From Acidimicrobiaceae bacterium (GTDB lineage Bacteria > Actinomycetota > Acidimicrobiia > Acidimicrobiales > RAAP-2): a DNA stretch of 43,918 nucleotides. A model generated the notes under the pieces. It saw only the letters and a list, made by a program, of their open reading frames with translations, was not told the origin of the DNA and did no database searches. Both the position numbers and the translations under genes were made by a program. Position 1 is the first letter of the stretch, and the number at the start of each line of letters is the position of its first letter. Of this stretch, positions 13,421-42,229 are shown piece by piece. The DNA lies in assembly GCA_947455165.1 (NCBI GenBank), contig CANGMP010000006.1, forward strand, positions 1-43,918. Reading direction: 5' to 3'.

Positions 13421-14268
13421 GCGTTTTCGTGCTGCGAGACCACTTCGGGGTCTTCGCGCAGAATCTCCAACGCCTCTTCCTCGGCACGACGAACGCGGCG
13501 AACACCGATGTCCATCTTTTGGGCCGTGGCCTGAAGTGAGAGTGGCGATCCACCGTTGAGGCCGTAGCGCAGGTTGAGCACGTCGCGCTGCAGTTCGGTG
13601 AGCTTGTCGAGCGCACCCTTCAGCTGGTCGTGCATCATGTTGCGCTCGATACCCTCGAGCCACGAGTCGTCGTTGCTGCCTACGAGCTCACCCAGCGTGG
13701 TGGTCGAGTCGGACGAGGCGGGCTGGTCCAAGCTGGCCGTGACGGCGGGCAGGTTCTCAAGCTGAAGGCGCTGCGCACGGGTAATGCCGGTCGCTTCGAA
13801 GATCTCTTCGTCGGTGGGGCGGCGTCCGTAGATGGAGGTCAGTTCCGACGTAGCGGCTTCGAGTCTCTGGAGCTGCTCGCCAACTTCGAGGGGGATGCGA
13901 ATGGTGCGACCGTGCTGCTGAACGGCGCGCTGCAACGACTGGCGAATCCACCAGGTGGCGTACGTCGAGAACTTGAATCCACGCTCGGGTTCAAACTTCT
14001 CTACGGCGCGCATTAGGCCAAAGGTGCCTTCCTGCAACAAGTCGGCCATGTCGACGCCACGGTCCTGGTAGCGGCGGGCCCAGTGGATCACAAGGCGGAG
14101 GTTGCCTGCGATCATTTGCTTCTTGGCTTCGGCGTCACCGTCTTGTACGCGCTTGGCGAGCTCGACTTGTTCGTCGTAGTTCGGCATCGGGTACTTGTCT
14201 AGGTCTCGCATGAAAAGAGCCAGCATGTCGTTAGATGCGCTGGCGGCTCGTCGGTTGGTGGTGCTCAT
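13417..14268 (-). CDS. RNA polymerase sigma factor, sigma-70 family (RpoD/group 2 type)
   Basis: The 283-residue protein has region 1.2 (MRDLDKYPMPNYDEQVELAKRV), region 2 with NLRLVIHWARRYQDRG, LLQEGTFGLMRAVEKFEP and FSTYATWWIRQSLQRAV (about 55-120). Region 3 follows, and region 4 (about 215-275) holds LTELQRDVLNLRYGLNGG and a helix-turn-helix. It lacks region 1.1, and LLQEGTFGLMRAVEKF is closer to group 2 factors than to the classic primary sigma, so a second, condition-specific sigma-70 is likely. The ribosome site AGGAGA lies 6 bases before ATG. The promoter carries operator-like palindromes. The gene is convergent with rluD and overlaps it by 4 bases. Confidence 0.88.
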   Translation of the reverse strand: MSTTNRRAASASNDMLALFMRDLDKYPMPNYDEQVELAKRVQDGDAEAKKQMIAGNLRLVIHWARRYQDRGVDMADLLQEGTFGLMRAVEKFEPERGFKFSTYATWWIRQSLQRAVQQHGRTIRIPLEVGEQLQRLEAATSELTSIYGRRPTDEEIFEATGITRAQRLQLENLPAVTASLDQPASSDSTTTLGELVGSNDDSWLEGIERNMMHDQLKGALDKLTELQRDVLNLRYGLNGGSPLSLQATAQKMDIGVRRVRRAEEEALEILREDPEVVSQHENA

Positions 14269-14320
14269 TTCTGGTCTCCTATCGGAACAGCTGACAACAC
14301 TTCGACAGTCGGGGGGACTG

Positions 14321-14349
14321 ACATATCGGTAATTTCCATACCGATATGT
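14321..14349. promoter_or_regulatory. Perfect 11-7-11 inverted repeat, candidate operator
   Basis: ACATATCGGTA at 14321-14331 and TACCGATATGT at 14339-14349 are exact inverted repeats around a seven-base centre. The site lies just downstream of the predicted sigma-gene -10 element, so a bound protein would block transcription. No T-run makes it a terminator. Confidence 0.6.
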
Positions 14350-14353
14350 GAGT

Positions 14354-14381
14354 AAGTTACCACTCGGTAACCAGATTGCAA
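14354..14381 (-). promoter_or_regulatory. Predicted promoter of the sigma factor gene with a second palindrome
   Basis: On the minus strand TTGCAA (14381-14376) and TAACTT (14359-14354) are separated by 16 bases. Inside this spacer and the -10 lies the inverted repeat GTTACC (14356-14361) and GGTAAC (14366-14371). The mRNA leader to ATG 14268 would be about 80 bases. Confidence 0.55.
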
Positions 14382-14415
14382 GACACTCCGTTTTAGAAGG
14401 TTTTTCTTGTAATTA

Positions 14416-14850
14416 CTAGTTAATTGGTGGAATACCACGGGCTCGGTCGACCATATCGGCCAGGGTGTAGCTCGCGAGATGATCAGCCATGTGGTGGCCC
14501 ACTTCGGCCCATACCGCGAGCAGGGCGCACTGGCCCTCGTGGTCGCAGGCCCCGTCTTTGTGGGGCTCGCCAAAGTCACCCGCCACGATTGGCCCATCGA
14601 CGGCAGCGACAATCTCACCGAGGGTCAGCTCCTCGGGTGGGCGGGTCAGGACGTAACCCCCGCCAACGCCGCGCTTACTGGTAACGATTCCGGCGCCCTT
14701 GAGCGAGAGCAAGATCTGTTCCAGGTAGGGCTGGGGGAGTCCGGTGCGCTCCGCGATGTCTCGGACCGAGGTCGGGCCACTCTCTTCTTCGTGGAGGGCG
14801 AGGCTGAGCAGCGCACGGCTGGCGTAGTCACCTCGGGTTGACACTCTCAC
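14416..14850 (-). CDS. Rrf2-family transcriptional regulator, likely iron-sulfur sensor
   Basis: The 144-residue protein has the Rrf2 winged-helix domain: RGDYASRALLSLA at 6-18, VRDIAERTGLPQPYLEQILLSLKGAGIVTSKRG, and the wing GGGYVLTRPPEELTLGEIV. It has two cysteines in a CDHEGQC motif (Cys102 and Cys108). IscR uses three cysteines for a [2Fe-2S] cluster, whereas some Rrf2 proteins use two plus other ligands, so cluster binding is plausible but inferred. The gene is leaderless by its promoter geometry and lies directly upstream of the sigma gene, whose promoter carries palindromes. It may control that promoter. Confidence 0.9.
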   Translation of the reverse strand: MRVSTRGDYASRALLSLALHEEESGPTSVRDIAERTGLPQPYLEQILLSLKGAGIVTSKRGVGGGYVLTRPPEELTLGEIVAAVDGPIVAGDFGEPHKDGACDHEGQCALLAVWAEVGHHMADHLASYTLADMVDRARGIPPIN

Positions 14851-14862
14851 GGGGTCAGAATA
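14848..14862 (-). promoter_or_regulatory. Leaderless promoter of the Rrf2 gene
   Basis: On the minus strand TATTCT (14862-14857) ends six bases before GTG 14850. No ribosome site is present. Confidence 0.6.
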
Positions 14863-14929
14863 CCCCTACGAGTTCTGGTGGTCCGGAAGAAATGCACCAA
14901 TCGTGGCTTTTCGGTGGCACACTGCACTC

Positions 14930-15418
14930 ATGCAAAGTGACGAAACGACGAACGTGGCCGTAGGGCCCGACGAGGTACTGCCGCCGTCGAGTGAAACCCC
15001 CGAAATGGGAGAACCTACCGACTTCATTTCTCAGCCGGCCAAGGTCATGCGGATCGGATCGATGGTCAAGACGTTGCTCGACGAAGCTCGCAACGCGCCG
15101 CTCGACGAGGCTGGTCGACGACGCCTTCGTGAGATCTACGAGCAGTCGGTCCGCGAGCTTTCCGAAGCGCTCTCGAGCGACCTCTCGGCTGAGTTGGCGC
15201 GTATGGCCACCCCGTTTACGGGCGACGTCCCGAGCGAGTCGGAGTTGCGCGTCGCTCAAGCCCAGCTGGTCGGGTGGCTCGAAGGCCTCTTCCACGGCAT
15301 TCAGGCCTCCCTCTTCGCCCAGCAGGCGGCCGCCCAGGCCCAGCTCGAACAGATGCGCAGTCGCGAACTGAGCTCCACCACCCCGAGCGGCGAACCACGG
15401 GCCGGAACGTACCTCTAA
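14930..15418 (+). CDS. bpa: Bpa/PafE-type bacterial proteasome activator (DUF2587)
   Basis: The 162-residue protein matches the ring-forming, ATP-independent activator of actinobacterial 20S proteasomes. The family core runs from about 36 to 150: QPAKVMRIGSMVKTLLDEARNAPLDEAGRRRLREIYE, then PSESELRVAQAQLVGWLEGLFHGIQASLFAQQ. The C-terminus ends in GTYL, matching the GQYL end of the known activator, whose penultimate Tyr docks into the proteasome. The N-terminal 35 residues are acidic and disordered-looking. ATG 14930 is chosen over the upstream TTG 14903 because homology and promoter geometry (CACACT, then six bases) fit. The gene implies that the organism has a 20S proteasome elsewhere. Confidence 0.9.
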   Translation: MQSDETTNVAVGPDEVLPPSSETPEMGEPTDFISQPAKVMRIGSMVKTLLDEARNAPLDEAGRRRLREIYEQSVRELSEALSSDLSAELARMATPFTGDVPSESELRVAQAQLVGWLEGLFHGIQASLFAQQAAAQAQLEQMRSRELSSTTPSGEPRAGTYL

Positions 15419-40504: not shown

Positions 40505-42229
40505 ATGCCGGGAATGGGTCATGGGGTTGATATTCACAACCCAGTTGTCACGAACCTCTTTCGGTTGGGACTCCACGTCAGTTTTGTTTGGGTCCTCGCG
40601 TTCGCAGTGCTCTTTGCCCTAGGTCTGGCCTTCGTGGCGCTTCGCTCACCTGACGGAGTGCCCCCGCTGAGCGAAGCGCGCCCCCGCACGACCCTCCGCG
40701 TCGGGTTTGGTCTCCTCTGGCTCCTTGACGGCCTCTTGCAGCTGCAGGCCGGAATGCCCCTCGGACTCAGTTCTCAGGTTCTCGCCCCGACCAAAGAGGC
40801 GGCTCCGACCTGGTGGCACGGCTTCATCGGAACGGCCGTACAGATTTGGAATCAACACCCCCTCGCTCTGGCACAGGCAGCAGTCTGGATTCAGATTGCA
40901 CTGGCCTTCGGCCTCTTAGGTTCCACACGCATGGCGAGCCGTGTGGCCGGTCTGCTGTCGGCAATTTGGGCCCTGCTCATCTGGCTGGTCTCAGGTTTTG
41001 GTGGTCTGTTTGGCCACGGTGTCTCCGTCCTCTTCGGATGGCCCGGTGCACCCTTGTTCTACGCGATTGCTGGCTTTGCCCTTGCCCTGCGCCCGGAAAA
41101 GTTCCCCCACGTTTATCAGGCGGTCGTAAGCAAGATTGTGGGCCTCATCTTGATTCTCGGTGCCGTGCTGCAGGCACTCCCCGGTAGTCACTTCTGGACG
41201 ACCGGTAACGACAATGCCCTGAATCAGATGATTCAAGACATGACCAGCGTGCCCCAGCCAGCGTGGCTCGCCGGCATCGGCCACGTCGGCGCCGGCGTCG
41301 TTCGAGCTGCCGGTCCGGGCATCAACATGCTCATTGTCGTCTGGCTGATGGCAGCGGGTGTCGGTCTGTGGCGAATCACGGTGTCGGGATTCCGCTGGCC
41401 CGCAAGCTCACTTGCGGTGGGTGCGGTCATTGTTTGGATCGTTGTTCAAGACACAGGTCTCTTCGGGGGAGTGGCGACAGACCCTAACTCCATGCTGCCG
41501 CTCGCACTGCTCGGAATAACACTGAGCCCACGCCTGCGAACGGCGGCTCCATTCAACGTCAAGCTCTCTGCCGTGGCGCGGCGAGCCATTAGTAATGCCG
41601 CAGTCTCTCTGGCCGGTGGCGCCCTTATTGTCGGCACCTACCTCGGTGCCACGGGGATCTTCGCTTCGCCCGAGACCACGCTGTATCGCGCCTACAACGG
41701 TGACGTAGCGGCCGTCGAGGGCACGCCAGCTCCGGACTTCACGCTGACCGATCAGAACGGCCAGCCATTCTCCCTCTCGACTCATCGCGCAGCTCACGAA
41801 GTTGTTGTGCTGTCGTTTATCGATCCCGTTTGCTACGAGGAGTGCCCTCAGATTGGCCACCAGCTCCTCGATGTCGTCAAAAACCCGCCGTCCGGTGTGA
41901 AGGTGACTGTCGTCATGGTTGCGGCAAATCTGCAGGACCATTCGAAGCGTCAGGTCGAGCACTTCATGGAGCAATACGACCTCGCGGGTGTGTCGTCGCT
42001 GTACTTCCTCAACGGCACGACTCACCAGCTACGTGATGTCTTTGAGCAGTACGGCATAACAGTCACAACCGGCGGTGAGCACGGCATGAGCATCCACAGC
42101 ATGGTTGTCTACATCATCAATGCCGCCGGCGAGATTCGCTACATCGTCGAAGACGATCCAGTCCCGGGTCCGGCCGGTCGCGCCTCGACTGTTCAGGTGC
42201 TGCGCGACGCCATCGTCACACTTCGATAA
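40505..42229 (+). CDS. Polytopic membrane protein fused to a Sco1/SenC copper-chaperone domain
   Basis: Of 574 residues, the first roughly 390 form about nine or ten hydrophobic helices, with a WLLDGLLQLQAGM motif near 70-82. I do not recognise that part by family. The C-terminal domain (about 405-574) is a Sco1-type thioredoxin fold, with PDFTLTDQNGQPFSLS and the copper motif C-x3-C (Cys443, Cys447 in DPVCYEECPQ). The third ligand, His531, lies in HSMVVYIINAAGEI. Sco proteins deliver copper to the CuA site of cytochrome c oxidase. Normally they have one anchor helix, so a polytopic fusion is unusual. AGGAG at 40494-40498 precedes ATG 40505, and ctaG-like follows with one base overlap. Confidence 0.82.
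   Translation: MPGMGHGVDIHNPVVTNLFRLGLHVSFVWVLAFAVLFALGLAFVALRSPDGVPPLSEARPRTTLRVGFGLLWLLDGLLQLQAGMPLGLSSQVLAPTKEAAPTWWHGFIGTAVQIWNQHPLALAQAAVWIQIALAFGLLGSTRMASRVAGLLSAIWALLIWLVSGFGGLFGHGVSVLFGWPGAPLFYAIAGFALALRPEKFPHVYQAVVSKIVGLILILGAVLQALPGSHFWTTGNDNALNQMIQDMTSVPQPAWLAGIGHVGAGVVRAAGPGINMLIVVWLMAAGVGLWRITVSGFRWPASSLAVGAVIVWIVVQDTGLFGGVATDPNSMLPLALLGITLSPRLRTAAPFNVKLSAVARRAISNAAVSLAGGALIVGTYLGATGIFASPETTLYRAYNGDVAAVEGTPAPDFTLTDQNGQPFSLSTHRAAHEVVVLSFIDPVCYEECPQIGHQLLDVVKNPPSGVKVTVVMVAANLQDHSKRQVEHFMEQYDLAGVSSLYFLNGTTHQLRDVFEQYGITVTTGGEHGMSIHSMVVYIINAAGEIRYIVEDDPVPGPAGRASTVQVLRDAIVTLR

Follow-up and report, generated by a model that had tools for sequence, protein, structure and literature searches.

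What do the two palindromes between a sigma factor gene and the rrf2 gene upstream of it do, and how is that sigma gene controlled? The locus lies in the window, the whole stretch of 43,918 nucleotides that we analysed, which comes from a draft genome of 1.54 Mb and 89.5% completeness. A sequence-only reading had placed both palindromes as operators, to be bound by a redox- or Fe-S-sensing Rrf2 protein that would repress the sigma gene in a sensor-to-sigma circuit. The two genes proved to be what that reading had taken them for. Pfam matched regions 1.2, 2, 3 and 4 of sigma-70 in the downstream gene product, which lacks the long region 1.1, as in group 2 sigma-70 factors. Its nearest NCBIfam models (Sig70-cyanoRpoD, RpoS and RpoD) all scored under their cut-offs, and no equivalog at cut-off was found among the models listed. 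The gene just upstream encodes an Rrf2-family protein with the motif CDHEGQC. The intergenic region between them is 147 nt long, and the divergent neighbour of rrf2 is a gene for a bacterial proteasome activator (BPA). The rrf2 message itself may be leaderless, as a -10-like TAG-A-T is seen by eye near the start codon in many relatives (window 14850-14940). A match to the sigma gene at E up to 1e-60 was present in 163 of the 172 genomes of the family, including 94 of 99 from the window genus. From these we read 86 loci of the genus, out of its 94 genomes with a match, and 46 loci of other genera, out of 69. The features of the locus are collected in Table 1.

Table 1. Features of the sigma factor locus in the window.
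Feature	Position	Strand	Basis or remark
Group-2-like sigma-70 factor, 283 aa	13417..14268	-	Pfam Sigma70 r1.2, r2, r3, r4
Shine-Dalgarno AGGAG of the sigma gene	14276..14280	-	Sequence; 7 nt 5' of the ATG at 14268
Second small hairpin CAGTC-CCCCC-GACTG	14306..14320	-	Fold
Putative hairpin of the 5' leader (the 11-7-11 palindrome), with a stem of 11 bp and UGGAAAU as its 7-nt loop	14321..14349	-	Fold; arm pairing across the genus
Extended -10 GTGGTAACTT	14354..14363	-	Constant spacing from the loop motif across the genus; column conservation
Small palindrome GTTACC-4-GGTAAC, spanning spacer and -10	14356..14371	.	Unchanged between the window and its three nearest relatives; possible operator
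Candidate -35 TTGCAA	14376..14381	-	Changed in the three nearest relatives
Rrf2-family regulator	14416..14850	-	Rrf2 PF02082, E 3.8e-39; D8, H97, C102 and H104 in 44/44, C108 in 43/44

The DNA elements that had been described were likewise found. On the minus strand the promoter consists of TTGCAA (14376-14381), a 16-nt spacer and TAACTT (14354-14359), its weak point being a -35 that is changed in the three nearest relatives; the transcription start would be expected at about 14346-14350. Just past this predicted start lies a perfect 11-7-11 palindrome with the arms ACATATCGGTA and TACCGATATGT (14321-14331 and 14339-14349). It is beyond chance for the intergenic region, as inverted repeats with arms of at least 11 and a gap of at most 20 arose in only 3 of 5000 dinucleotide shuffles of these 147 nt. 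Over the whole window there were two such repeats, compared with 0-2 (mean 0.42) in 12 shuffled windows; the second, also perfect, has arms of at least 11 and a gap of 19 and lies at 40638. The small palindrome is present in the spacer and -10 as well. By itself it is unremarkable, because a comparable dyad (arms of at least 6, gap of at most 10) turned up in 1330 of 5000 dinucleotide shuffles of the same region.

We then asked of each palindrome what is kept among relatives. For the large one, neither sequence nor spacing is: within the clade of the window its stem is 11-7-11 in the window, 5-10-5 in two genomes (G016 and G152) and 6-6-6 with other letters in another (G013). As letters and spacing vary between close relatives while the pairing of the arms persists, the claim that it serves as a repressor operator is not supported, and the large palindrome is most likely the stem of an RNA hairpin at the 5' end of the transcript rather than a protein-binding DNA site. 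Compensatory stem changes in the leaders of the genus were seen by arm permutation, by swaps between nearest relatives and by covariation in a model-fitted alignment. Among 54 loci left after removal of rows at least 80% identical, own arms paired at -9.40 kcal/mol versus -7.41 kcal/mol for permuted arms (z -6.9, 0 of 10,000), and control arms (reversed, complemented, reverse-complemented or shuffled) gave z values of -0.07 to -1.49, reaching -1.75 at stricter redundancy cut-offs. When arms were exchanged only between nearest relatives (53 loci, the short rows L111 and L114 being left out), own pairing was better in 40 of 53 (Wilcoxon 3e-5). The model-fitted alignment, built from 43 model matches, held at least one double change in all six pairs and had a covariation score of 0.317 versus 0.237, with 0 of 500 shuffles as high; it is fitted to the structure and holds one off-target row from L013, and in 8 of 500 shuffles the observed value was reached on one of five measures, that of cells with double changes. 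In a hand-picked alignment of 11 near-identical rows, too uniform to tell, covariation did not show, with 326 of the 500 shuffles scoring at least as high. The arm test at the matching place in other genera yielded z values of -0.5 to -1.8, the last at 197 of 5000 and thus weakly positive at one offset. As to stability, a 38-nt piece of the window folds at -15.4 kcal/mol (z -4.7). Across the same 53 loci the stability of the leaders is modest, with a mean z of -1.2 and a z below zero in 40 of them, and in several loci of the genus the predicted fold differs from the expected hairpin.

The loop is conserved and so is its place. In the genus, the region from promoter to leader reads GTGGTAAaTTA, then 12 mostly variable bases, then TAGGAGAAAT, the last being exact in 68 of 86 loci. 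TAGGAGAAA stands exactly 23 nt past the start of GTGGTA in 70 of the 86 loci; variants at that place were assigned by eye in 14 further loci, for which the anchor was picked by likeness to the consensus and the fixed distance from -10 to loop is therefore partly by construction, and L111 and L114 were anchored differently. The loop reads UAGGAGAAAU in most relatives, mostly 40-65 nt 5' of the sigma start codon, and its columns show about the same degree of conservation as the -10 columns. In the clade of the window the purine loop is altered to UGGAAAU. None of the 46 stretches from other genera contained TAGGAGAAA. Downstream of the loop motif, 31 of the 86 genus loci (L006, L009 and L011 among them) have a run of at least five C, which in the window lies inside the second small hairpin. 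Some loci of other genera (L049, L051-L053) show, by eye, a different small hairpin, such as GAGCAG-loop-CTGCTC, just 5' of the ribosome-binding site. Rfam gave no match in the whole window at the gathering score, nor in 14200-14450 at E up to 1, and among the titles and abstract openings of the matches listed we found no literature on this leader element.

The element is also tied to a single gene. When 84,980 species genomes were scanned for exact matches to the unit GTGGTAAATTA-N12-TAGGAGAAAT, 70 were returned, 66 of them linked to the sigma gene: 63 directly 5' of it and 3 beside rrf2 at the end of a stretch, with 4 elsewhere and unrelated. The contigs that carry the element are mostly labelled Acidimicrobiaceae, Acidimicrobiales or Actinomycetes. 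Records labelled Acidobacteria, Acidobacteriota or Saccharibacteria (L173, L177, L178, L186) bear the same element 5' of the sigma gene, and their labels look wrong. A covariance model was tried on 74 of the 86 loci and then on 41 of the 99 genus genomes. At E up to 1 it recognized 42 of the 74 leaders offered; it misses divergent ones such as that of the window, which was not among them. At E up to 0.5 it gave 28 matches in 25 of the 41 genomes, of which 23 coincide in position with the sigma leader, 1 (G149) was without comparison and 4 are weak matches elsewhere (E 0.10-0.48). As neither the pattern scan of the 84,980 genomes nor the model in the 41 genus genomes turned up a multi-gene regulon, we read the leader as a cis element of a single gene, not as the mark of a regulon.

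A strong stem between rrf2 and the sigma gene might instead end the rrf2 transcript as an intrinsic terminator, or attenuate transcription from rrf2 into the sigma gene. The stem of the window, however, is followed by CAGUCCCCCC and no U-run, so that the GC-rich stem plus U-run of an intrinsic terminator is lacking there, and a run of at least five T within about 50 nt after the loop motif occurs in 3 of 86 genus loci. The stem also keeps a near-constant distance from a conserved -10, for which a terminator has no need, and we consider termination or attenuation very improbable. The loop raises another alternative, namely that it is the site of a CsrA-like or other dedicated RNA-binding protein, or that a small RNA base-pairs with it. 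CsrA sites typically present AGGA in a hairpin loop, and the AGGA of the conserved loop, kept about as well as the -10, resembles them. Yet the CsrA family was found in only 1 of the 26 genus genomes searched, and not in that of the window, on which ground a CsrA-regulated leader was rejected; for the wider class of dedicated loop-binding partners, we think such a role improbable. A leader peptide starting from the AGGAG loop was discarded too, as the frames, judged by eye in the leader sequences, are inconsistent.

If the large palindrome is the image of an RNA hairpin, the small one may still be an operator. In such a two-layer arrangement, Rrf2 or another dimeric regulator would sit over the -10 while the hairpin acts on the RNA, both serving the same gene. 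GTTACCGAGTGGTAACTT is unchanged across the window and its three nearest relatives although the -35 differs there, and a similar TTAC(C/T)GAGTGGTAA is seen by eye in some other lineages without TTG at the -35. Against this, the right half of the small palindrome is the extended -10 and is explained by it, the left half is lost in many loci, and covariation of the arms among the genus loci was not significant, with 362 of 5000 permutations as high. TTACC was found at the symmetric place in 22 of the 86 loci, and arms of at least 4 bp in 31. In six genus genomes, TTACC-N4-GGTAA occurs at 1 to 4 places per genome, 14 in all, one in each being the sigma promoter; two further copies, each common to two genomes, lie in or near genes, and no regulon for the dyad was found in these six. 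On balance, we view the two-layer arrangement as possible but rather doubtful.

The same observations bear on the original proposal, in which Rrf2 would bind both palindromes and so repress the sigma gene in response to redox or Fe-S state. The gene order speaks for it: rrf2 is directly upstream of the sigma gene in all 44 genus loci long enough to judge. In the Rrf2 proteins aligned from these loci, D8, C102 and C108 are kept, as are H97 and H104 (counts in Table 1), and the invariance of GTTACCGAGTGGTAACTT in the window clade, together with the partial retention of TTACC and of short dyad arms in the genus, points the same way. IscR has cysteines at three positions, and C102 and C108 align with two of these. 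The window protein thus shares with IscR and other Rrf2 repressors the Rrf2 domain, a YLEQ stretch and two cysteines at IscR-matching positions, whereas the third cysteine and the histidine position of IscR are unmatched in it, and inspection by eye revealed no IscR-type operator. These differences suggest that the cluster ligands of this Rrf2 may be unusual, and a sensor role for the protein is plausible. Its binding at the sigma promoter is another matter. The large palindrome alters letters and spacing with pairing kept, the arms of the small dyad do not covary significantly, and no dyad was present in the 150 nt 5' of rrf2 in any of the 44 loci, nor was a regulon found in the six genomes. 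Moreover, other genera supply at least 12 loci with rrf2 next to the sigma gene, all of which are without the dyad and the loop motif; this number is a lower bound, as those stretches reach only about 400 nt upstream. We found nothing beyond position in favour of binding by Rrf2, and repression through both palindromes seems to us quite unlikely. Of the sensor-to-sigma circuit, the promoter region, the group-2-like sigma factor and the constant neighbourhood of rrf2 stand, and the large palindrome is most likely not its operator. A literature search found no paper that joins Rrf2, a sigma factor and Acidimicrobi.

The promoter type of this sigma gene differs between the window genus and the other genera of the family. 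GGAAT-N18-GTT was found 5' of the sigma gene in 43 of the 46 loci from other genera (12 of the 46 being oriented from the hit table), compared with a mean of 0.39 and a maximum of 2 in shuffles. Excerpts of PMC10012870 give GGAAT-N18-19-GTT as the sigH consensus and describe sigB of M. tuberculosis, C. glutamicum and R. erythropolis as transcribed by sigE and sigH. As far as those excerpts go, the other genera share this motif at their sigma gene with actinobacterial sigH/sigE control of sigB, whereas the window genus has a different promoter together with the leader hairpin, and the ECF type is present in 11 of its 86 loci. No such sigH/sigR-type motif was found in the promoter region of the window. 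The count of 11 refers to GGAAT-N17-19-GTT near the start; a 12th pattern match (L003) lies farther upstream and is probably due to chance, and L021, with N16, was left uncounted.

The regulators follow the same division. SigH_actino matched at E up to 1e-30 in 64 of 73 genomes of other genera versus 2 of 99 of the genus, and RsrA was above cut-off in 62 of 73 versus 0 of 99; no genus genome had SigH over its curated cut-off (0 of 99), although the absences are to be read with the caution that draft genomes may miss genes. Weaker matches were found in the genus for SigH-like genes (16 of 99 at E up to 1e-22) and for RsrA-like genes (56 of 99 at E up to 1e-4), and the genome of the window, a draft of 89.5% completeness, had neither. 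A SigH-like gene (E up to 1e-22) accompanied 10 of the 12 genomes flagged for an ECF-type promoter versus 6 of the 74 others (Fisher 1.3e-7), the two flagged loci without one being L003/G016, the probable chance match, and L108/G169. This P value overstates independence and the association rests on few independent events, because the loci with the ECF-type promoter form one clade in the sigma tree (11 rows, support 97/93; L251 from G176, a wrong-frame row on a very long branch, is to be disregarded). In that clade, one retention or one re-gain of the promoter is possible. Judging from its spread over the other genera, the ECF-type promoter would be the older state, and the window genus seems to have moved away from sigH/sigR-type control of the sigma gene.

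What, then, would have taken its place? The explanation that we favour, with a probability of roughly 60%, is a housekeeping-type promoter followed by a hairpin at the 5' end of the sigma mRNA, which would act on the stability of the message or on ribosome loading. An extended -10 promoter (TGGTAACTT in the window, TGGTAAATT in most relatives) would set the transcription start a few bases ahead of the stem, and the sigma mRNA would then begin with a hairpin of which the large palindrome is the DNA image. With its Shine-Dalgarno-like purine loop, the hairpin may then act after initiation, guarding the 5' end of the mRNA, holding a ribosome as a standby or stabiliser, or both, and might thereby set the amount of sigma factor made. 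Underlying this explanation are the near-constant distance from -10 to loop, the conserved loop, the variable but pairing arms and the link to one gene, features that in the sequences compared are restricted to one genus; we infer from them the start point and the stabilising step. The Shine-Dalgarno part of the explanation is weakest in the clade of the window, where the loop is predicted to be UGGAAAU.

There are precedents for such an arrangement. Protection of messages by purine-rich tracts and by 5' stem-loops has been reported for Bacillus and mycobacteria (PMC2358910). The leaders described here have the trait of such 5' stabilisers (polypurine or STAB-SD elements and 5'-terminal stem-loops, as in Bacillus and mycobacterial katG), namely a purine, Shine-Dalgarno-like stretch and/or a stem-loop near the inferred 5' end. 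They differ in that a single hairpin, ahead of a sigma gene, carries both purine stretch and stem and keeps its spacing from the -10 nearly constant across a genus; the polypurine tract of katG lies 4 bp before its own start codon, unlike the hairpin here. One may also imagine a new lineage-specific regulatory RNA, in which a 5' hairpin that senses a protein, a small RNA, an ion or temperature replaced the ECF promoter when the genus lost full sigH/RsrA-type control, with Rrf2 maybe adding a layer at the DNA by way of the small palindrome. The comparison of loci shows a genus-wide difference in promoter type and a predicted leader hairpin that matches no Rfam family, and we consider a sensing function of this kind unlikely.

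Overall, these data replace a conjectured protein operator with an RNA element that can be tested. They also point to a natural change in the control of one stress sigma gene, which has an ECF-type promoter in most of the 46 loci of other genera and, in the window genus, another promoter plus a conserved leader hairpin. If the protective hairpin that we favour acts only as a stabiliser, it would be a clear case of 5' protection in a little-studied group of actinobacteria; if it is regulatory, it would represent a new sigma-gene leader RNA.
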